Assembly (NCBI GenBank): GCA_018650645.1
Contig: JABIFP010000008.1
Coordinates: 1-41,302 of the forward strand
Reading direction: 5' to 3'
Source of the DNA: Candidatus Magasanikiibacteriota bacterium
GTDB lineage: Bacteria; Patescibacteriota; Patescibacteriia; Magasanikbacterales; UBA922
Length of the DNA: 41,302 nucleotides
In this document: positions 15,885 to 24,382 of the stretch, piece by piece
Layout: every line of letters starts with the position of its first letter
Numbering within the stretch: position 1 is the first letter of the stretch
Notes under the pieces: model-generated
Database searches by the model: none
Told to the model about the DNA's origin: nothing
What the model saw: the letters and a program-made list of their open reading frames with translations, nothing else
Program-made: the position numbers and the translations under genes

Positions 15885-16085
15885 ATGAAGGGTACAATTA
15901 AACGTGTTACTGACAAAGGATTCGGATTCATGGAAGTAGAAGGATATGACAAAGATATCTTCTTCCACGCTTCTGCGCTTGATGGCACAATGTTCAACGA
16001 TCTCAAAGACGGTGACATCATGGAATGTGATGTAGTCGAGAGTGACAAAGGACTAAACGCTATCAACGTCCGCGCTGCAGAATAA
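15885..16085 (+). CDS. Cold-shock domain protein
   Basis: A 66-aa single CSD protein. RNP1 is KGFGFMEV (residues 11-18) and RNP2 is DIFFHASAL (25-33), both on the OB-fold beta strands that bind single-stranded RNA or DNA. These proteins melt mRNA structure and act as RNA chaperones. The surrounding signals suggest high, regulated expression: a strong promoter, a leader of about 78 nt carrying a copy of the first coding bases, and a terminator directly downstream. It is monocistronic. Which Csp paralogue it matches cannot be said. Confidence 0.96.
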   Translation: MKGTIKRVTDKGFGFMEVEGYDKDIFFHASALDGTMFNDLKDGDIMECDVVESDKGLNAINVRAAE

Positions 16086-16142: not shown

Positions 16143-16171
16143 TTGACAATTGTGGCCATATTTGATATGGT
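16143..16171 (+). promoter_or_regulatory. Sigma-70 promoter of a short RNA unit
   Basis: Consensus TTGACA (16143-16148), a 17-bp spacer and TATGGT (16166-16171). The expected start is near 16178. Confidence 0.75.
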
Positions 16172-16177
16172 CGGTAC

Positions 16178-16256
16178 TCACTCAGGTGGCAATTGGGGGT
16201 TGCTGCAGAGCTGAAAAAAAAGAGGTACTGACATTTGTTGGCGCCTCTTTTTTTGT
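16178..16256 (+). ncRNA. Probable small RNA (about 80 nt)
   Basis: The region between a strong promoter and a terminator has no ATG-started ORF. A short stem GCAA/TTGC lies around 16190-16205. The 3' end is an intrinsic terminator: the A8 tract plus GAGG (16214-16225) pairs with CCTC plus the T7 tract (16244-16254). A GTG-started 29-codon frame would run through the terminator and is not believed. Function is unknown. It lies between the cold-shock gene and a second short unit, both in the same direction. Confidence 0.55.
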
Positions 16257-16264
16257 TTTTGGGA

Positions 16265-16293
16265 TTGACGAATAGGGGCGCCGTGCGTACTAT
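16265..16293 (+). promoter_or_regulatory. Sigma-70 promoter of the leader-ORF unit
   Basis: TTGACG (16265-16270), a 17-bp spacer and TACTAT (16288-16293). The expected start is near 16300. It begins about 9 bp after the T tract of the preceding small RNA. Confidence 0.7.
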
Positions 16294-16326
16294 GCATATG
16301 CACGTGCACAGCAAGGAGGGGAGCCT

Positions 16327-16404
16327 ATGCACGAGCGCCGGCCCACTATGGTGGTAGGATTGCTAGACCCATCCACTTGTGTGGGCCGGTTCTTTTTTAG
16401 ATAA
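16327..16404 (+). CDS. Possible 25-aa peptide with strong SD, overlapping a terminator
   Basis: ATG at 16327 is preceded, seven bases upstream, by AAGGAGG, the best Shine-Dalgarno in the window. The frame encodes MHERRPTMVVGLLDPSTCVG followed by RFFFR and a TAA at 16402-16404. The coding bases contain both arms of the terminator at 16338-16398, and the stop codon lies four bases after its T tract. RNA ending at the terminator would lack a stop codon. It is therefore either a regulatory leader peptide or not translated. The strong ribosome site is the only real evidence for translation. Confidence 0.4.
   Translation: MHERRPTMVVGLLDPSTCVGRFFFR
16338..16398 (+). terminator. Long-loop intrinsic terminator or attenuator
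   Basis: CCGGCCCAC (16338-16346) and GTGGGCCGG (16381-16389) are perfect complements, followed by TTCTTTTTT. The 34-nt loop can form a second helix (GTGG and GAT with ATCCAC). The unit from 16300 to 16398 would be about 100 nt long. Confidence 0.7.
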
Positions 16405-16411
16405 GTGGGGC

Positions 16412-16440
16412 TTGACAAAAGCAAGAATATATGATATGCT
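16412..16440 (+). promoter_or_regulatory. Sigma-70 promoter of the GC-rich gene at 16570
   Basis: Consensus TTGACA (16412-16417), 17 bp, then TATGCT (16435-16440). The expected start is near 16447, giving a leader of about 120 nt. Confidence 0.78.
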
Positions 16441-16464
16441 TGCTCGTCATTAATTGTGTGTGAT

Positions 16465-16503
16465 TTTCTGAATATATGTCTCAGGCAGGTATATATTCAG
16501 AAA
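16465..16503 (+). promoter_or_regulatory. Strong hairpin in the 5' leader
   Basis: TTTCTGAATATAT (16465-16477) pairs perfectly with ATATATTCAGAAA (16491-16503) around a 13-nt loop. It lies near the mRNA 5' end, 66 nt before the ATG, and may stabilise the transcript or act as a regulator site. No T tract follows, so it is not a terminator. Confidence 0.6.
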
Positions 16504-16569
16504 GTTGCAAGACGCGGCTTTCCTCTTTGCCGATGGACGGTAAGGAGCTGTTTCCGAAAGGGAAGCGAA

Positions 16570-17109
16570 ATGAGCAAGCGCATCAGCGCGGCGGCCATGG
16601 TTCACATCGAGAACGAGCTCGGACCGCAGGGGGCGCAGGCCCTCTTCGATCCGGCCAACGTGACCGTCCTCCGGATGGTCGCGGACAACCTCCTCATGTT
16701 AGCGCAGGGGCAGGTTGAGACAATGTTCGAGATCGATGGGGAGGAGTTTGAGATCGTCACCGCCCTGTTCTCTGGTGAGTTCAGCGTTTCGGGGCGTACC
16801 ATCATCGAGCGTATGCGTGAGCATGAAGGCAAGATGACCAAGGTGCTCGTGACCTGGCTCCGTGACCGTGGGGACCAGATCCCCCTGTCGTTTCGACGGT
16901 TCTCGCTGGTTCTGCCTGGGCTGAAGGGTCAGGATGTGAGTGAGCCTGCTTTCTGGGATGACTACGTTTTCCTCGCCTTCAGTCGGGGCCGGTGGGGTTT
17001 TCACCCCTTCTGCGTCAACGTGTCGAATCACCAGAAGGATGATCGGCTCGTGGACCCCGACAGCGGCTACGGCCACGACATGGTCTTCCTGGTCCACAAC
17101 CCCGAGTAA
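16570..17109 (+). CDS. GC-rich ORFan protein (cassette-like gene)
   Basis: A 179-aa soluble-looking protein of no family I recognise. The ATG at 16570 is chosen because an AAAGGGAAG ribosome site precedes it and the coding signal starts there; the open frame extends upstream only through the leader. Third codon positions are mostly G or C (for example 23 of 25 codons near 16620-16695), unlike the AT-ending codons of all neighbouring core genes. No signal peptide or membrane segment is visible. The N-terminal half looks helical and the C-terminal half is rich in aromatics (WGFHPFCVNVSNHQ). It is monocistronic, with its own consensus promoter, a structured leader and two downstream terminators. 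It is probably acquired laterally. Confidence 0.75.
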   Translation: MSKRISAAAMVHIENELGPQGAQALFDPANVTVLRMVADNLLMLAQGQVETMFEIDGEEFEIVTALFSGEFSVSGRTIIERMREHEGKMTKVLVTWLRDRGDQIPLSFRRFSLVLPGLKGQDVSEPAFWDDYVFLAFSRGRWGFHPFCVNVSNHQKDDRLVDPDSGYGHDMVFLVHNPE

Positions 17110-17181
17110 TCGCCTAGGCCCATCCGGGCCAATGTATCGTTCATGACACGGTCATGACCGATCTGAGAGGCGAATTTCAAT

Positions 17182-17243
17182 CACCCCGCAATGGCTAGTC
17201 CGTGCGGGGTGTTTCTGTTTTGCACCATAGGGTGCATTTTTTT
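17182..17243 (+). terminator. Tandem intrinsic terminators after the GC-rich gene
   Basis: The first hairpin is CACCCCGCA (17182-17190) with TGCGGGGTG (17203-17211) and a T-rich tail. The second, immediately after, is TGCACC-ATAG-GGTGCA (17221-17236) followed by T7. Together they isolate the unit from the convergent gene. Confidence 0.85.
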
Positions 17244-17247
17244 ATAC

Positions 17248-17285
17248 AAAAAAAAGAGCCACATCTTCCCTCAGTCGATGCGGCT
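17248..17285 (-). terminator. Intrinsic terminator of the minus-strand GC-rich gene
   Basis: On the minus strand, AGCCGCATC (17277-17285) pairs with GATGTGGCT (17257-17265), with one G-U pair, followed by a C and a T8 tract. It faces the plus-strand terminators. Confidence 0.8.
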
Positions 17286-17310
17286 GCCTGGAACGCCAGG
17301 CGCGGTGTTG

Positions 17311-17634
17311 TCAGGCCGGTGTGCGGCCGACGGTCAGGAAGATCAAGTTCTCATGGGGCCGCTGCTCCGTGATCTTCAGATCGTAGGCCTTGGCCCACTC
17401 CTGCGCTGCCTGCACGAACTCGCTTGTTTGGTTCGGATCGAACCAATCGGCTGCGGCCAGCGTGAGGGTGACACGCGCGGTCGGCGGCATTCCCGCGTAG
17501 ATGCGCACCTTTGTTTGCAGACGGGACGGGTCCAGGACGATGTGGTAGCCGGGATGCAGTTCCTTGCTTCCCATCTTCTCCTTGAACCTTTCCCCGAGTG
17601 ATTTGCGATGACTGGTATGCGTCGTTCGGCTCAT
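17311..17634 (-). CDS. GC-rich ORFan protein (cassette-like gene)
   Basis: A 107-aa protein of unknown family. The ATG at 17634 is chosen because a GGGAGGG Shine-Dalgarno lies about six bases upstream and a full promoter lies just beyond; the longer open frame would cross that promoter. The N-terminus is basic (HTSHRKSLGERFKEKMG). The rest alternates hydrophobic strands (ARVTLTLAAADW, LIFLTVGR) with a helix (SEFVQAAQEWAKAYDLKI), suggesting a small alpha/beta fold. No signal peptide or membrane segment is seen. Codons are GC-ending, as in the convergent gene at 16570. It has its own promoter and terminator. No function can be assigned. Confidence 0.72.
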   Translation of the reverse strand: MSRTTHTSHRKSLGERFKEKMGSKELHPGYHIVLDPSRLQTKVRIYAGMPPTARVTLTLAAADWFDPNQTSEFVQAAQEWAKAYDLKITEQRPHENLIFLTVGRTPA

Positions 17635-17659
17635 TCTATCCCTCCCTTGTCTGGCACTA

Positions 17660-17688
17660 GTTGTACCAGATATTTTTTTTTTCGTCAA
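17660..17688 (-). promoter_or_regulatory. Sigma-70 promoter of the minus-strand GC-rich gene
   Basis: On the minus strand, TTGACG (17683-17688), a 17-bp A-rich spacer and TACAAC (17660-17665). The -10 is the same as that of the lipoprotein unit at 23269. Confidence 0.75.
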
Positions 17689-17739
17689 TATCAAAGCGTA
17701 AATGTGGATAACATTTCCTATATTCCTTGCCACTACAAC

Positions 17740-17779
17740 TATAGTGGAGTAAAATGGAGATAAGTGGGGAAACGTGGGG
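17740..17779 (+). promoter_or_regulatory. mraZ promoter with MraZ operator boxes
   Basis: Four tandem boxes with a 10-bp period lie just upstream of mraZ: GTGGAG (17744), ATGGAG (17754), GTGGGG (17764) and GTGGGG (17774). Direct repeats of this kind, one per helical turn, are known MraZ binding sites. TATAGT (17740-17745) is a possible -10, so the boxes cover the predicted start of transcription and MraZ would repress its own operon. Confidence 0.82.
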
Positions 17780-17826
17780 AATTTGAGTGCTATGCTTGTC
17801 AACTCAAACCTCATAAACGCTTATCT

Positions 17827-18258
17827 ATGTTTATTGGCGAATACACCCACAACCTTGACGAAAAGGGACGCATCGCTGTACCCAAAAAGTTTCGTACCGC
17901 TCTTGCAAAAGGCGCAGTCGTAACCCGAGGGCTCGATGATTGTCTCTTTTTGTACACAAAGGGTGAGTGGAAGGTACTTGCTGAAAAATTAGCGAACCTC
18001 CCATTCTCGCAGGCTAACACGCGTGCATTTGCGCGCTTGATGCTCGCTGGGGCAATGGAAGTTGCACCAGACAAACAAGGAAGAATTATGCTTCCAGAGT
18101 ACCTGCGTGAATATGCCGGGCTTTCAAAGGAGATTACCGTGGCAGGTCTATACAACCGTCTCGAACTTTGGAGTCAGTCAAAATGGAAAGCGTACACAAA
18201 GAAAACACAAGCAGCGCGCAATGAAATCGCGGAGCAGCTTGGGGAGCTTGGTATATAG
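17827..18258 (+). CDS. mraZ: Transcriptional regulator MraZ
   Basis: A 143-aa protein with the family start MFIGEYTHNLDEKGRIAVP. It has two SpoVT/AbrB-like halves, each with the signature DxKGR: LDEKGRIAVPKKFR near the N-terminus and PDKQGRIMLPEYLR in the second half. MraZ forms ring-shaped oligomers that bind tandem repeats upstream of its own gene and control the division and cell wall cluster. The four boxes at 17744-17779 fit this exactly. The ATG at 17827 gives the canonical N-terminus; the longer frame from 17764 would run through the operator. rsmH follows after three bases. Confidence 0.97.
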   Translation: MFIGEYTHNLDEKGRIAVPKKFRTALAKGAVVTRGLDDCLFLYTKGEWKVLAEKLANLPFSQANTRAFARLMLAGAMEVAPDKQGRIMLPEYLREYAGLSKEITVAGLYNRLELWSQSKWKAYTKKTQAARNEIAEQLGELGI

Positions 18259-18261
18259 CCT

Positions 18262-19173
18262 ATGCGACATATTCCAGTATTACTAAGCGAGACGATAGAA
18301 GGACTCGATCTTCATGAGGGCGATATTGTTGTTGACTGCACGCTTGGCGATGCCGGTCATGCAGAACAAATCATGGAGCTGATTGCTCCAACGGGCAAAC
18401 TCATCGGGATTGATGCAGATGCGGAAGCGCTATTACGCGCAAAGCAGTTTCTGTATCGATTTGGTGAGCATGCAACATTTGTGAAAGATAATTTTAGTAA
18501 TCTTTCATCAATTACCCATGCAGAGGGGGTGCACGGCAAAGTACATGCCATTCTTGCTGACCTTGGTTGGTCAACACCACAATTTGCAGAACGCGGCAGA
18601 GGGTTTAGTTTTCATAATGAAGACGAACTTTTAGACATGCGATACGGAAGTGGAGCAATTGCTCCGGCACATGAGCTGCTCGATGAAATGTCTGAGTCGC
18701 AGCTTACAGAAATCTTTCAAGAATATGCCGACGAATCGCTTGCAAGTAATATTGCTTACGCGATTGTGCAGCATAGAAAGAAAGCACACATTCGCACGGT
18801 TGGAGATTTGGTAGAAATTGTACTGCAGACATACAGAGAAAAATTAGGGACAGAGAAGCGAGTACCGTGGGTTGGGGGTAATCACCCGGCAACCAAAGTA
18901 TTTCAAGCACTCAGAATTGCCGTGAATGATGAATATGGCGTTATAAAATCATTTATTCCAGAAGCAATAGAGGCGTTAGCGCCCGGAGGGATACTGGCAA
19001 TCATAACGTTTCATTCCGGAGAAGATCGAATAGTCAAACATATGTTTAAAAAGGCTGCGAGCCTTGGACAGATACAATTGGTACAAAGAAAACCTATTGT
19101 CTGCTCTGAAGAAGAAGCAAAAGAAAATCCACCATCAAGAAGTGCAAAGCTTCGACTGGTAAAAAAAATATGA
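18262..19173 (+). CDS. rsmH: 16S rRNA m4C1402 methyltransferase
   Basis: A 303-aa RsmH/MraW, the usual length. It methylates N4 of C1402 of 16S rRNA using S-adenosylmethionine. The family start HIPVLLSETIEGL is followed by the SAM site DCTLGDAGHAE, which reads GDAG instead of the more common GGGG. ILADLGWSTPQ and the later FQALRIAVNDE, ALAPGGILAIITFHSGEDRIVK and C-terminal PSRSAKLR are all conserved. It overlaps the next gene by four bases (ATGA), so translation is coupled. Confidence 0.97.
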   Translation: MRHIPVLLSETIEGLDLHEGDIVVDCTLGDAGHAEQIMELIAPTGKLIGIDADAEALLRAKQFLYRFGEHATFVKDNFSNLSSITHAEGVHGKVHAILADLGWSTPQFAERGRGFSFHNEDELLDMRYGSGAIAPAHELLDEMSESQLTEIFQEYADESLASNIAYAIVQHRKKAHIRTVGDLVEIVLQTYREKLGTEKRVPWVGGNHPATKVFQALRIAVNDEYGVIKSFIPEAIEALAPGGILAIITFHSGEDRIVKHMFKKAASLGQIQLVQRKPIVCSEEEAKENPPSRSAKLRLVKKI

Positions 19174-19511
19174 AACAAAAACAATACAAAAAAAGTTTTA
19201 AAGAAAAACGAGACGCCGTAAAAGCGCTCTCAAAAAAACGCAGTTTCCGCGTGGGGTTATTAGTGTTTACCATTAGTATGCTTGTGCTTGATGTGTTTCA
19301 AACGTCTGTTGTTTCTGCAACAGGAGATGAGATTTCAGCACTTCAGCAGGAGTCGCGGGAGCTCGGATATCAACATGAGCGCATTGTATATGATATTGCG
19401 CAGCATAGATCAATGCTCGCAGTACAAGAACGACTTACCGGAATGGATTTTGTGGCAGCAGGTGAAAGAGAGTACATACTCCTCAGTGGTAATGCCGTTG
19501 CAAGTAGATAA
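19170..19511 (+). CDS. ftsL: FtsL-like cell division protein
   Basis: A 113-aa bitopic protein. A very basic cytoplasmic tail of about 30 residues (KQKQYKKSFKEKRDAVKAL) is followed by one membrane helix (VGLLVFTISMLVLDVFQ). The periplasmic coiled-coil region includes ISALQQESRELGYQHERIVYDI. FtsL proteins diverge in sequence, so the call rests on topology, size and position after rsmH in the dcw cluster. FtsL works with FtsB and FtsQ to activate septal wall synthesis. The cluster stops here: no ftsI, mraY or mur genes follow, only a terminator. Confidence 0.75.
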   Translation: MKQKQYKKSFKEKRDAVKALSKKRSFRVGLLVFTISMLVLDVFQTSVVSATGDEISALQQESRELGYQHERIVYDIAQHRSMLAVQERLTGMDFVAAGEREYILLSGNAVASR

Positions 19512-19519
19512 AAAAGAAG

Positions 19520-19541
19520 ACTCCCGTGTGGGAGTTTTTTT
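19520..19541 (+). terminator. Intrinsic terminator ending the short dcw operon
   Basis: ACTCCC-GTGT-GGGAGT (19520-19535) followed by a T7 tract. Confidence 0.88.
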
Positions 19542-19548
19542 GTTGGTG

Positions 19549-19557
19549 TGGTAAAAT
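19549..19557 (+). promoter_or_regulatory. Extended -10 promoter of the membrane protein/Clp-like pair
   Basis: TGGTAAAAT ends 10 nt before the ATG at 19568, so the mRNA would be nearly leaderless. Confidence 0.6.
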
Positions 19558-19567
19558 ACATGTATTC

Positions 19568-19945
19568 ATGAATAATTGCATCATGTTCGTCTTGCTACTA
19601 CAAAAAATTTCACTTCGATTATTACTCGATGTAATTCAGTTTCCACTTTGGTGGTATTCCAAAGGGCTTGTGATTGCTGCTCGGCAATTAGGGACGCGTA
19701 TTGCTGGGGCGAGTGCACGACTCGCACCAGGATTATGGCTCAAAAATATATTTGTTCCCATGTTTGGGCAATATAGTTTAGAAGGAAGATTGACGAGTTT
19801 TTTTGTACGCGGAGGAAACGTCATACTTCGATCTATTGGACTATTCTTTGTAACATGTTGGTACGCTCTTTTATTTGTGGTGCAGGTACTGTTGCCACTG
19901 TTTGCTGCATACATGTGTATTCTTTCTTTTAGCGCTCTTGTATGA
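19568..19945 (+). CDS. Small hydrophobic membrane protein, partner of the Clp-like gene
   Basis: A 126-aa protein I cannot place in a family. It has a hydrophobic N-terminus (IMFVLLLQKISLRLLLDVIQ), an amphipathic middle with Arg/Lys and Gly/Ala (LGTRIAGASARLAPGLW), and a long hydrophobic C-terminal segment (SIGLFFVTCWYALLFVVQVL) that probably crosses the membrane as a hairpin. The ATG at 19568 follows a -10 box directly. It overlaps the Clp-like gene by four bases (ATGA), which strongly suggests that the two products act together, perhaps as a membrane anchor or regulatory subunit. That role is inferred only from the overlap. Confidence 0.7.
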   Translation: MNNCIMFVLLLQKISLRLLLDVIQFPLWWYSKGLVIAARQLGTRIAGASARLAPGLWLKNIFVPMFGQYSLEGRLTSFFVRGGNVILRSIGLFFVTCWYALLFVVQVLLPLFAAYMCILSFSALV

Positions 19946-22623
19946 TGTTTGGAAAAAATGCGCAGCTCGATGTTATTACGAGTTCACTGGCTACTCCGTC
20001 AAAAAGAGAGCAACAATTGCAGGCAGGAATAATGAAAGGAAAGCGATTTCACTATTTTGGTGCGCAGCTTTCTAGAATGCCAATCAAATATGAACGCATG
20101 AAACGGGTGGTGGATAAAGTTGAAGTATTTGTTTCTATTGCAGTTGGTTTAGCGCTGGTGCTTGTATTCATGTGGCAGATTATTCAGACAGGTACAGAGC
20201 CGCTATTGTTTACTACACGATTTTGGCTCGGTAGTTCAGCACTCCCTATGTATCTATGGGGTGCGGTATTATGTTTCTGTTTTGCCTATTATCAATTTGT
20301 TTCAAATACACCACATAAAAAAGAAATTCCTGCTGACATTTCAGAGCCCGCTCGCATTGTATCTTTAACAGAAGTGGCTAATGGCCATGCGGGTAGACGA
20401 TTTGATATGTCGCAAACGTGTACGGCATTAGCACTGCACGTTGTAGAAGAAGCATTTTTGATTACAGACAACGTAAATGCAGAGGAGGTACTTCCAACAC
20501 ACATATTTGCGGCACTCTTGCGTGATCAGCGTATTGCAGGTATTTTTGTTCGATTAGGAATTCCTGCTGGGCAGCTCGCCAAAGAGATTGAAAAACATTT
20601 TCCAAAAGGCCTGCAACCGAGCGAACCAAAGATGAGTGCGGATGCGTGGCAAATTATGTTTAACGCATATGAAATTGCAGCACAAGCAGAGCAAGAATAT
20701 GTGCATGTCACAGAATTGCTACTTGCTACTGTGCGGCAGTCTGAATCGATTGGACAAATGTTACAAGATTTAGGAGTCAACAGTCAGAAGCTTACAAATG
20801 TTATTGAATGGGTGCGCATAAGAGAGCGGCTACACATGCAGTATCTGCAAATGAAACAAGCCGCAGGGTCTAGAAACAAACATGGATTAGATAGAGCCAT
20901 GACAGCAGTGGCAACGCCATTTTTGCATCAGTATAGCCAAAACCTGACACAGGCTGCTGCATTGGGGCAGCTCGAGCCTTGTGTTGCAAGAAAAATAGAA
21001 TTAGATGCTATTTTCAGATCGATTGAAAGTGGACAGCACGGTATGTTACTTGTTGGAGACCCGGGAGTAGGAAAAATGAGTCTGATTCAAGGAATCGCAC
21101 AGCGAATGGTAGAAGAACATGTGCCAAAAGAACTAAAAGATAAACAGCTTATTGCGCTTTCAACATCTGCGCTGGTTGCTGGAGTGACCGTAAGTGGCGC
21201 ACAAGAAAGAATTTTGCACATGGTAAAAGAAATGCGCAAGGCAAAAAACATCGTTTTATATATTCATAACATTCATGACTTGGTTGGTTCTGCCGATGCG
21301 GGGCTTGATGTATCAGAGGCGCTTGCAGAATTTATTTCTTCAGGGCAGGTACTTGTTATTGCAACAACAACTCCAGACGCATATGCAAAATATATTAGCC
21401 GAACAGAATTAAGTTCAGTACTCAGTAAGATTGATGTACATGAAATGGATGAGAACCAAGCAATTCAAGTGTTAGAAGCAACGGCTGGACCGCTTGAATA
21501 CAAGCATCATGTATTTTATTCATATGGTGCTATTGAATCTGCCGTTGCACTTGCAACGCGGTTTATGCATGAACAGCAATTGCCAGAGAATGCAATTCGA
21601 TTACTCAGTGAATCAGCAACTGTGGCACGGTCAGCTCGTGGAAATGATACGTTAGTGACCAAACAAGATGTTGCTGCAGTTGCTTCAGAAAAAAGTGGTG
21701 TTCCCGTAGAAAATCTTGGCGCAGATGAATCACAAAAATTATTACAGTTAGAAGAAGAAATGCATAAGCGTGTTGTTGGTCAAGATGAGGCAGTGGGTGT
21801 TGTTTCTGCAGCATTACGGCGTGCGCGGGCAGAAATTCGATCGCTGAATAGACCCATTGCAAATTTCTTATTCTTGGGTTCAACAGGTGTTGGAAAAACA
21901 GAGCTCGCTAAAACAATTGCAGAAGTGTATTTTGGTGGGGAGCAGGCAATGATTAGAATTGATATGAGTGAATACAAAGATGCTACCGCGGTGTATCGGC
22001 TAATTGGACAGGCGGGGCAACAGGGAACAGGGCAGCTTGCAGAAGCCGTTCGGCAGCAACCATTTTCTCTTGTACTGTTAGATGAAATTGAAAAAGCAGA
22101 CCCTTCAATACTCGATTTGTTTTTGCAAATATTTGATGACGGAAGAATGACTGATAGTACTGGGCGAGTTGTTGATTTTACCAACACAATCATCATTGCA
22201 ACAAGTAATGCAGGAACAGCGCGTGTGCAGCAGGGAATAACAGCTGGACAATCACATGAACAAATTAAAGAGACACTTTTGAAAGAAGAGTTGAAACAGT
22301 ATTTCCGCCCAGAATTTATTAATCGATTTGATGGGGTAGTCGTATTTACTCCGCTCGATAGAGATGACATTAAGCACATTGCGCATAATATGCTGAAGCG
22401 TGTTGCTTCTGACGTAGAAAAGAAAGGAATTACGCTTGATGTGAATGAGGATGGATTAGAGTTACTAGCACAAGCAGGATTTGATCCAGAATATGGTGCT
22501 CGGCCAATGCGTAGAGCTATTCAAGATCATGTAGAAAATGCACTTGCTGATATGATTTTGAAAGGCGAGTTGAAGCAGCAAGATACGGTAGTATTTGGTG
22601 GAGAAGGATTGGTGAAACAATAA
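19942..22623 (+). CDS. Membrane-anchored ClpC/ClpB-like AAA+ protein with a degenerate first ATPase domain
   Basis: An 893-aa protein. Two membrane segments (about 62-81 and 100-120) precede a Clp N-type repeat region (about 155-290). AAA1 keeps Walker A (GDPGVGKM, 372-379), but Walker B reads IVLYIHNIHDL, so the catalytic Asp-Glu is His-Asn, and the usual ERRF arginine fingers are absent (SSVLSKI). AAA2 has an intact Walker A (GSTGVGKT, 646-653) and Walker B (VLLDEIEKA). The substrate-gripping tyrosines are missing in both pore loops: AAA1 has VTVSG where KYRG is normal, and AAA2 has GQAGQQGTG where GYVGY is normal. I see no ClpP-binding IGF-type loop. It is probably ATP-driven through AAA2 only, with a non-standard role at the membrane. 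Confidence 0.85.
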   Translation: MMFGKNAQLDVITSSLATPSKREQQLQAGIMKGKRFHYFGAQLSRMPIKYERMKRVVDKVEVFVSIAVGLALVLVFMWQIIQTGTEPLLFTTRFWLGSSALPMYLWGAVLCFCFAYYQFVSNTPHKKEIPADISEPARIVSLTEVANGHAGRRFDMSQTCTALALHVVEEAFLITDNVNAEEVLPTHIFAALLRDQRIAGIFVRLGIPAGQLAKEIEKHFPKGLQPSEPKMSADAWQIMFNAYEIAAQAEQEYVHVTELLLATVRQSESIGQMLQDLGVNSQKLTNVIEWVRIRERLHMQYLQMKQAAGSRNKHGLDRAMTAVATPFLHQYSQNLTQAAALGQLEPCVARKIELDAIFRSIESGQHGMLLVGDPGVGKMSLIQGIAQRMVEEHVPKELKDKQLIALSTSALVAGVTVSGAQERILHMVKEMRKAKNIVLYIHNIHDLVGSADAGLDVSEALAEFISSGQVLVIATTTPDAYAKYISRTELSSVLSKIDVHEMDENQAIQVLEATAGPLEYKHHVFYSYGAIESAVALATRFMHEQQLPENAIRLLSESATVARSARGNDTLVTKQDVAAVASEKSGVPVENLGADESQKLLQLEEEMHKRVVGQDEAVGVVSAALRRARAEIRSLNRPIANFLFLGSTGVGKTELAKTIAEVYFGGEQAMIRIDMSEYKDATAVYRLIGQAGQQGTGQLAEAVRQQPFSLVLLDEIEKADPSILDLFLQIFDDGRMTDSTGRVVDFTNTIIIATSNAGTARVQQGITAGQSHEQIKETLLKEELKQYFRPEFINRFDGVVVFTPLDRDDIKHIAHNMLKRVASDVEKKGITLDVNEDGLELLAQAGFDPEYGARPMRRAIQDHVENALADMILKGELKQQDTVVFGGEGLVKQ

Positions 22624-22630
22624 TTTGCGT

Positions 22631-22657
22631 AAAAAAATAAGCCCGCCGAAGCGGGCT
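22631..22657 (-). terminator. Intrinsic terminator of the lipoprotein unit
   Basis: On the minus strand, AGCCCGC-TTCG-GCGGGCT (22640-22657) is followed by TATTTTTTT. It has a UUCG-type tetraloop. It lies just after the stop of the convergent Clp-like gene. Confidence 0.88.
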
Positions 22658-22686
22658 GTTGACGTTTCGGCCGGGTGGCCAGGGCG

Positions 22687-23226
22687 TCAGTCCTCTTCCT
22701 CCGCGGGCGGGCACTCGCTGTGGAGCACCGCGGGGCCGCCGTGCTCCTCGGTCAGGTGGGCGTTGGAGCAGAAGCTTCTGTCCGGGAACAGGTCTTCCTC
22801 GTAGTCCTCCGAGCACGCCTCGAAGTTCTCGACCGGAACGCACCGAGCCACCTCAATGCGGTCGAGGTAATGGTAGAGGTTCGCGTCCTGCTGCACGCCG
22901 TGAGGAACGGGCGGGTCGATGCGCTTACCGGTGCAGTAGGTGCAGGTGAGACATGCGTAGGTGTCCTGATCTTTGCTCAGGTACCAGTTGTTGCCGTCAC
23001 AGACCGCGATTCGGCCGCTGTCCGCGCACACGCGCAGGGTCTGGCCTTCATCGATCACGTTGGTGCCGTGCAGCAGGTGGTGCAATCGCCACTCCGTGTG
23101 GACCTCGCGGCAGTTCTCACCCACAAGGGGGAGCTCAGTCGCATCAGCCACACCAGCATCCAGTGCCAGAGGCGCGGGCTCGCAAGCCAGCAGCACAAGT
23201 GGCAAAAGCCACAACAAATATTTCAC
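22687..23226 (-). CDS. GC-rich, Cys-rich predicted lipoprotein (cassette-like gene)
   Basis: A 179-aa secreted protein of unknown family. A GTG start at 23226 is preceded by AAGGAGAG; the longer frame lacks such a site. The signal peptide is KYLLWLLPLVLLAC, with an LLAC lipobox and Cys15 as the lipidated residue, a likely substrate of the Lgt encoded at 13469. The mature part starts with a low-complexity EPAPLALDAGVADAT spacer, then carries ten more cysteines, including CLTCTYC. This suggests a disulfide-stabilised or metal-binding domain. It ends in an acidic tail. Codons are strongly GC-ending, unlike the flanking genes. The spacer style is reminiscent of high-GC predatory or myxobacterial lipoproteins; that origin is only a guess. 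Confidence 0.75.
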   Translation of the reverse strand: MKYLLWLLPLVLLACEPAPLALDAGVADATELPLVGENCREVHTEWRLHHLLHGTNVIDEGQTLRVCADSGRIAVCDGNNWYLSKDQDTYACLTCTYCTGKRIDPPVPHGVQQDANLYHYLDRIEVARCVPVENFEACSEDYEEDLFPDRSFCSNAHLTEEHGGPAVLHSECPPAEEED

Positions 23227-23268
23227 TGATCTCTCCTTGCAACAGGGCACTTGGCCCATTCATGTATT

Positions 23269-23297
23269 GTTGTATCAGAAAAGATGCACTTTGTCAA
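23269..23297 (-). promoter_or_regulatory. Promoter of the lipoprotein gene
   Basis: On the minus strand, TTGACA (23292-23297), 17 bp, TACAAC (23269-23274). The -35 overlaps, on the opposite strand, the -35-like TTGTCA of the divergent glycosyltransferase gene. Confidence 0.78.
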
Positions 23298-23326: not shown

Positions 23327-24382
23327 ATGATTTGGATGTTTACTACTGCCGTAGCGCTTGCTGCGCTGCTTACCTGGGGAGTGCGACTACTCATGCTTCG
23401 GCTCAGCGTCGTTGATGCTCCAGAAGGGGGAAGAAAAATTCACAAAAAGCCGATTGCTCTTGGTGGTGGTTTGGCTATTTTTTTGACATGCTCAACCCTC
23501 ATGCTCATTCTTTTGCAGCAGGGAAAGCTCGGAGCAGATATTTCACCGAAAATAATTATTGGATGTGTGATTGCAGGGGCCGTGCTGATGATTGGGGGCT
23601 TCTTAGATGACAAACATCGTTGGAAGCCTAAAAAGCAGCTTATAGCCCCAATTATTGCCGCTGGCATCATTCTTACAGCTGGGCTTGGATTAGAAAGTGT
23701 GACAAATCCAACAGGTGGGCTATTAGCACTTAATCAAATTCGATTTACATTAGAAGGATTAGGGAACCTGGTGCTCTTTGCGGATACTGTTGTGTTCTTT
23801 TGGCTGATGGGAATGATGTTTACCACTAAATTTTTAGATGGACTTGATGGACTCGTTGCAGGAACCGCTGCCATTGGTGGGCTTATGATGTTTTTTGTTG
23901 CACGTCAACCGCAATGGTTTCAGCCAGAAGTGGCTATGGTAAGTCTCATTTTTGCGGGTGCGTGTGCTGGTTTTTTAGTATGGAATTTTCATCCAGCAAA
24001 AATATTTTTAGGCGAAGGGGGAAGTGTGTATACCGGATTTATGCTTGGCGTGCTTGCACTTATTTCTGGAAGTAAAATAGCGACAACGCTTCTTGTGATG
24101 GGTGTTCCTATTTTAGATGTTGCGCGCGTTATTGTAACAAGAAAAATGAAAGGGAAATCGATTTTTGAAGGAGATGATGAACATTTGCATTACAAATTAC
24201 TGCACTCTGGCCTTTCTCAGAAACAAACCGTGTATATTTTTTATGGCATCTCTGCACTTTTTGGCATGAGTACGCTATACTTACAAAGTAAAGAAAAACT
24301 GATGGCGTTAATACTCCTTGGAATCATGATGCTTTTTGTGGGCGTGTGGTTTTCTAAACATCCTTATGAGCAAGCAAAATAG
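23327..24382 (+). CDS. Polyprenyl-phosphate sugar-1-phosphate transferase (WecA/TagO/MraY superfamily)
   Basis: A 351-aa protein with about ten membrane segments. Family motifs are HKKPIALGGGLAIF near the N-terminus, GGFLDDKHRWKPKKQL (the Asp-Asp Mg2+ site), TTKFLDGLDGLVAG, FLGEGGSVYTGF and the cytoplasmic DDEHLHYKLLHSG, which reads HLHY where HIHH is usual. These enzymes attach UDP-HexNAc-1-phosphate to undecaprenyl phosphate and start a surface polysaccharide. The motifs fit WecA/TagO better than MraY. The ATG at 23327 follows an extended -10 box; an in-frame ATG at 23309 would overlap that box. A DUF192 gene overlaps the 3' end. Confidence 0.9.
   Translation: MIWMFTTAVALAALLTWGVRLLMLRLSVVDAPEGGRKIHKKPIALGGGLAIFLTCSTLMLILLQQGKLGADISPKIIIGCVIAGAVLMIGGFLDDKHRWKPKKQLIAPIIAAGIILTAGLGLESVTNPTGGLLALNQIRFTLEGLGNLVLFADTVVFFWLMGMMFTTKFLDGLDGLVAGTAAIGGLMMFFVARQPQWFQPEVAMVSLIFAGACAGFLVWNFHPAKIFLGEGGSVYTGFMLGVLALISGSKIATTLLVMGVPILDVARVIVTRKMKGKSIFEGDDEHLHYKLLHSGLSQKQTVYIFYGISALFGMSTLYLQSKEKLMALILLGIMMLFVGVWFSKHPYEQAK

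Follow-up and report, generated by a model that had tools for sequence, protein, structure and literature searches.

We found that the GC-rich units of this window, by which we mean the whole analysed stretch of 41,302 nucleotides (the entire contig C2), belong to a second class of genes present throughout the genome, mostly ORFans, whose codon use and ribosome sites are foreign. We think it probable that each is a complete foreign transcription unit of a single gene (a "chromosomal moron"), acquired singly from Shine-Dalgarno (SD)-using GC-rich bacteria and quickly lost. The name stands for moron-like foreign transcription units and makes no claim that they are phage morons. The genome consists of 1,035,600 bases in 32 contigs, is rated 100% complete and has a reported contamination of 0.02%. 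Its size, gene content and relatives indicate a Patescibacteria (CPR) lineage. Our genome sample comprised 636 kb (61%) of it, read as stretches, with genes called by a simple ORF caller at fixed thresholds. The units of the window and their neighbours are the following.

15885 to 16085, forward strand: cold-shock protein gene (csp), native, left of the array (Pfam CSD, 2e-16)
16143 to 16256, forward strand: unit 1, with promoter TTGACA-17-TATGGT, a short structured transcript and a predicted terminator (RNA fold z -4.3)
16265 to 16398, forward strand: unit 2, with promoter TTGACG-17-TACTAT, SD AAGGAGG and a predicted terminator (fold z -2.7)
16412 to 16440, forward strand: promoter of gene A, predicted from sequence, TTGACA-17-TATGCT with a TG extension
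16570 to 17109, forward strand: gene A, 179 aa, ORFan, GC3 0.80
17110 to 17215, forward strand: 3' structure of gene A, a branched hairpin with a TCGCCT/AGGCGA closing stem, then a terminator (fold z -5.8)
17255 to 17310, reverse strand: 3' hairpin and terminator of gene B (RNA fold z -2.8)
17311 to 17634, reverse strand: gene B, 107 aa, ORFan, GC3 0.77, a small alpha/beta protein (pLDDT 73)
17660 to 17688, reverse strand: promoter of gene B, TTGACG-17-TACAAC, with SD AAGGGAGGG at about 17645
17827 to 18258, forward strand: mraZ, native, right of the array, first gene of a family-conserved operon
19942 to 22623, forward strand: ClpB/ClpC-like AAA+ gene (named from sequence reading), left border of the second slot
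22638 to 22686, reverse strand: 3' hairpin and terminator of gene C (RNA fold z -4.5)
22687 to 23226, reverse strand: gene C, 179 aa, ORFan, GC3 0.80, GTG start, a Cys-rich putative lipoprotein with lipobox LLAC
23269 to 23297, reverse strand: promoter of gene C, TTGACA-17-TACAAC
23327 to 24382, forward strand: glycosyl transferase family 4 gene (GT4), right border of the second slot (Pfam 3e-27)

The GC3 values of genes A, B and C were 0.80, 0.77 and 0.80, respectively, whereas those of the remaining genes of the window lay between 0.28 and 0.48, which bears out the GC-ending codons that the earlier note on this DNA had ascribed to the three genes. GC3 was bimodal in the 636 kb sample: the 328 native genes had a GC3 of 0.33±0.04 with a maximum of 0.44, the range between 0.45 and 0.60 was nearly empty, and 57 GC-rich genes, hereafter cassettes, ranged from 0.64 to 0.91 with a mean of 0.755, the thresholds that define them having been set after the data were seen. 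The cassettes occurred at about 9 per 100 kb, which, for a representative sample, would mean about 90 in the whole genome. They were mostly monocistronic and placed between native operons, in GC-rich islands of about 0.3-2.5 kb (median 650 bp) that hold one gene in most cases. The spread of their GC3 (sd 0.062 versus a binomial 0.032) suggests several donors or partial amelioration. Their Cys content was 2.1% versus 0.9% in native genes and their K/(K+R) 0.35 versus 0.59, while 6 of 57 cassettes were lipoprotein-like versus 8 of 328 native genes (p 0.009; the pattern was crude, and the six include at least one helicase). Since lipoproteins and Cys-rich proteins are in excess, some units may act at the cell surface. 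At L071 (1722-4010, forward strand) three successive GC-rich lipoprotein-like genes, weakly interrelated, form a multi-gene run, which is rare among cassettes. Two tandem GC-rich paralogues at L078 (4511-7372, forward strand) are 28% identical, and their leaders and N-termini are almost the same, which suggests a local duplication of a cassette.

All five units of the window had the promoter TTGACR-N17-TAnnnY with a spacer of exactly 17 bp, as had been reported for them; the -35 and -10 hexamers are at 16143/16166, 16265/16288 and 16412/16435 on the forward strand and at 17688/17665 and 23297/23274 on the reverse strand, and the promoter of gene C abuts the divergent promoter of the glycosyltransferase (TTGTCA at 23291). 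This strict motif gave 93 matches at spacer 17 versus 6-27 at spacers 13-16 and 18-21 in the 636 kb. With units treated as independent, as in all our cassette enrichment tests, and promoters, SD sites and terminators taken as sequence predictions, 25 of 44 complete cassettes had a strict promoter in the 300 bp before them versus 13 of 153 native operon-first genes (p 6e-11). A narrower form, TTGACAAA-N12-TGNTATANT, was present in all 46 family genomes, usually about ten times in each, while the 18-bp-spacer control of this pattern gave 5 matches in total across the 46. The same -35/-10 layout also precedes rpsO, a DEAD-box helicase gene and tRNA genes in the family. We regard the cassette promoter as the recipient's own type because it occurs in all 46 genomes and before rpsO and other native genes; a foreign origin was rejected, the layout being the family's own strong promoter. 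The layout is thus not peculiar to the cassettes, and extended -10 boxes, which had been read as a native trait, were commoner in cassettes (29 of 38 cassette promoters versus 16 of 49 other canonical promoters). Besides GC3, the distinguishing feature of the cassettes is the SD site and not the promoter layout.

None of 323 native genes had GGAGG at the first start, a stronger result than the lack of SD sites claimed for them beforehand, and native genes of the sampled relatives were likewise almost SD-free. With all candidate starts up to codon 80 allowed, GGAGG was found in 28 of 53 cassettes versus 8 of 328 native genes (p 7e-21), with 5 of 43 in the internal control within cassettes. The ribosome sites described earlier for the three genes were found as AAGGGAGGG in gene B, AAGGAG in gene C and, in gene A, a purine-rich AAAGGGAAGCG directly before its ATG; unit 2 has AAGGAGG. 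The 16S 3' end reads GGATCACCTCCTTTCT with an intact anti-SD, and the ribosome could therefore use the cassette SD sites.

Genes A, B and C each have a hairpin immediately past the stop codon, then the predicted terminator, and these 3' folds, like those of units 1 and 2, were far more stable than those of shuffled sequences (z values above), in agreement with the terminators assigned to them previously. The mean 3' folding z was -3.4 for cassettes versus -1.8 for native operon ends (p 6e-6), and a terminator was predicted for 12 of 44 cassettes versus 8 of 146 in the native set (p 2e-4). Several units in L067 and L079 have a common 3' sequence around GGGCACTACTGCCCGC plus a terminator.

Units 1 and 2 are both below ordinary gene size. 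Sequence reading of unit 1 gave no convincing ORF, and this unit is a candidate small RNA or gutted cassette. Unit 2 has a possible 25-aa ORF behind its SD, with an ATG at 16328, and is comparable to two 46-aa mini-units with full signals at L086 (6304-7000); because of these two, very small cassettes can be said to exist. Unit 1, and perhaps unit 2, has the look of a gutted or miniature unit. A 12-bp direct repeat, AGATAAGTGGGG, is located at 16399-16410 and 17758-17769, on both sides of genes A and B, and its right copy falls within MraZ-box-like repeats preceding mraZ. It is probably a product of chance or part of these repeats.

The Pfam cut-off was passed by none of the three proteins A, B and C. 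Searches for homologues returned marginal matches at most, for gene A in phages, plasmids, IMG/VR and 287 phylum genomes, for gene B in IMG/VR and for gene C in IMG/VR and GTDB, so that the absence of a recognisable family, as previously stated, held. The AlphaFold2 model of gene A was uninformative (pLDDT 44), and a fold search with the model of gene B (pLDDT 73, moderate) gave no match. Eight cassette proteins searched in the 45 other family genomes had no homologue above marginal scores, five further ones had no match in phages, and one ORFan cassette had none in IMG/VR. Comparison of the 57 cassettes showed that they are almost unrelated to one another. Few had Pfam matches, namely two response-regulator receivers and single cases of a MopE/FGE domain, a helicase, PAP2, RNA polymerase alpha-CTD, integrase-repeat, cupin and two weaker ones; PHROG matches were also few. 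The closest relatives of the helicase cassette were from about 24% (GTDB) to 37% (Deinococcus plasmid) identical, and the MopE/FGE-domain cassette had remote matches only (25-36%), nearly all inside the FGE part. The alpha-CTD match was assigned by sequence reading to a GC-rich gene at L076 (3-335, forward strand, contig C21), the product of which resembles an alpha C-terminal domain of RNA polymerase standing on its own. This contig has the length of phiX174 (5386 bp), but no phage record matches its first 1.5 kb. A GC-rich ORF at L057 (8788-9672, reverse strand) is apparently made up of integrase repeats (Pfam INT_rpt with a best E of 2e-55, assigned by sequence reading). In G171, a genome of the same order, the protein of a GC-rich unit at L205 (6638-7912, reverse strand) scores 134 bits, above the cut-off, against NF052498, the model of the TIGR-Tas RNA-guided endonuclease.

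Comparison of the locus in 20 family genomes, all of other genera than the source genome, showed that the gene order mraZ-rsmH-clpC-glycosyltransferase is kept in most of them (tblastn for clpC next to mraZ) and that the gap between clpC and the glycosyltransferase is 40-165 bp in most. This clpC-GT4 slot holds unrelated GC-rich sequence in the source genome, G029 and G012, the filling of G012 lying behind a strong SD, and AT-rich genes in two other relatives. The slot upstream of mraZ holds GC-rich units in G019, G035, G016, G030, less clearly G021, and the source genome, which is modestly above an assumed occupancy of 10% (p 0.009). Unrelated GC-rich genes have refilled the two slots of the window independently, while other genera have them empty, and the slot upstream of mraZ is, on this comparison, a recurrent insertion site. 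Some relatives at the level of order and class, such as G171 and G083, have units of this kind, which were absent from others of the sampled genomes; no gene sharing between genera was found among the cassettes tested. About 15 GC-rich islands (tRNA-free) without an intact ORF suggest decayed cassettes. The relatives thus lack the same genes, the GC3 of genes A, B and C lies outside the native range, and independent assemblies carry such units; on these points the earlier note had staked its reading, and contamination or misassembly of the units is unlikely.

That note had likened the units to a cassette system, and our results support stand-alone, promoter-bearing units of fast turnover, whereas the dedicated recombination machinery that the comparison implies did not emerge from our searches for a border motif, an integrase or IS110. 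A system in which a Xer-, IntI- or IS110-like recombinase exchanges promoter-gene-terminator modules among these bacteria would account for the head-to-tail or tail-to-tail packing with short gaps (window 16143-17700; L079, L066, L086) and for the re-use of slots, and candidates exist, since the source genome has three Phage_integrase-type proteins and the family genomes several tyrosine recombinases. However, the integron integrase model (cut-off 265) was passed in none of the 46 family genomes, the best matches (about 154+108 bits) being tyrosine recombinases that skip model positions about 183-235; the Xer-like recombinase at G029:C8:43217-44008, for example, scores near the cut-off with these positions skipped. 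An IS110-type transposase was absent from the source genome and present in 2 of the 46 family genomes, genes A-C include no transposase, and no inverted repeat bounds the csp-mraZ units. The k-mer and short-repeat search of cassette borders, which was general and not attC- or dif-specific, gave no common motif, the strongest shared 3' sequence being limited to a few units in L067/L079, and no target duplication or integrase accounting for insertion was found. With no genes shared between genera, we judge such a dedicated system unlikely.

Ordinary horizontal transfer of small GC-rich fragments, the cassette look being all that a compact genome tolerates, seems to us equally improbable. It agrees with the decayed islands and with the single-gene transfers reported for aquifer Patescibacteria, about 0.9 kb in size and as much as 13% of the genome length (PMC12455944), but these, as described there, concern mainly annotated functions and Patescibacteria donors, whereas ours are mostly ORFans with SD sites, which native genes of the sampled relatives also lack. 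Moreover, the units have promoters, SD sites and strong 3' structures more often than native genes do, which is not expected of random fragments. Host-like codons, an SD, a consensus promoter and a terminator are also what a gene needs when it is delivered as DNA for expression in another cell; the promoter, however, is the recipient's own as well, and the decay of units speaks against strong use, so that we consider this reading very improbable. GC-rich sequence at 24 of 58 contig ends versus 5.1% of internal windows speaks for an assembly chimera or contamination, to which we nevertheless give hardly any credence: the units lie inside contigs with conserved neighbours and recipient-type promoters, independent assemblies of other genera have the same slots filled, the reported contamination is 0.02%, and hardly any repeats are common to the contig ends. 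The GC-rich ends would be explained if cassette content varied between strains, the alternative being uneven coverage. The 3' ends of contigs C6 (L061) and C14 (L069) have the same lysine/alanine-rich tandem repeat coding sequence.

Phage morons, or "accessory" or "moron" loci (Juhala et al. 2000, cited in PMC7067206), resemble our units in being single genes with their own promoter and terminator (here predicted from sequence) and a deviant base composition, diverse and dispensable, between genes of a compact genome. The units differ from them in their location on a bacterial chromosome, in their number (dozens per genome), in their neighbours, which in the window are cellular (csp, mraZ, clpC-like, GT4) with no phage genes seen around, and in bearing a translation signal that the recipient almost never uses otherwise. 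They share with integron gene cassettes the mostly ORFan single genes, the high turnover and the short arrays, but here no integrase exceeded the cut-off in the 46 family genomes, no common recombination site was seen, each unit has its own promoter and the units are scattered over the genome. Xer-dependent pdif modules are likewise small, with their own promoters, and inserted between other genes, whereas our general k-mer and repeat search gave no conserved flanking motif. Unlike transposons or insertion sequences, the window units have neither a transposase nor bounding inverted repeats, and the genome has no IS110 type; unlike genomic islands, which span at least some 10 kb and hold several genes, mobility genes among them, they measure 0.3-2.5 kb and are mostly one gene. 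The transferred single genes of about 0.9 kb that make up a large share of small aquifer Patescibacteria genomes (Gios et al. 2025, PMC12455944) were, as described in that paper, exchanged mainly between Patescibacteria and had annotated functions; we saw in that description no mention of cassettes or of GC-rich SD-bearing stand-alone ORFan units. Our literature search found no paper describing such units.

If the units are chromosomal morons acquired singly, as we favour, each would have come alone from a GC-rich (about 60%) SD-using bacterium, which may have been a host, prey or a neighbour. The DNA may have entered by the type IV/ComEC uptake route (ComEC is present in the source genome), only units that are ready for transcription in the recipient and land between operons would persist, and deletion would precede codon adaptation, so that slot content would turn over between genera. 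The donors probably lie outside the SD-poor group and have about 60% GC, as indicated by SD use, codon bias, the low lysine content and the Cys-rich lipoproteins. The MopE-type DDCDG repeats with an FGE domain, together with the lipoproteins, presumably recall Myxococcota-like secretomes; a donor search with the helicase cassette gave remote relatives only. It counts against this explanation that random donor pieces predict more truncated and more conserved housekeeping genes, and that the promoters match the recipient's strong type, which is not needed in a distant donor. A bolder version, with some hundred rapidly exchanged foreign units that form, next to native genes almost devoid of SD sites, a second, SD-led and GC-ending grammar of translation initiation, fed by host or prey and moved by a footprint-free mechanism not yet described, is doubtful in our view; if such a host-fed SD-led layer were real, the cassettes would be a record of host identity.

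Genomes of about 1 Mb are usually regarded as streamlined. Our results serve as a warning that units of this kind can be broken or lost during assembly and binning, and they make testable the origin of CPR ORFans, the donors (perhaps hosts) of uncultured Patescibacteria and the use of SD-led messages in an SD-free bacterium, in which perhaps nearly one gene in ten is foreign, unadapted and quickly replaced, with a ribosome signal of its own.
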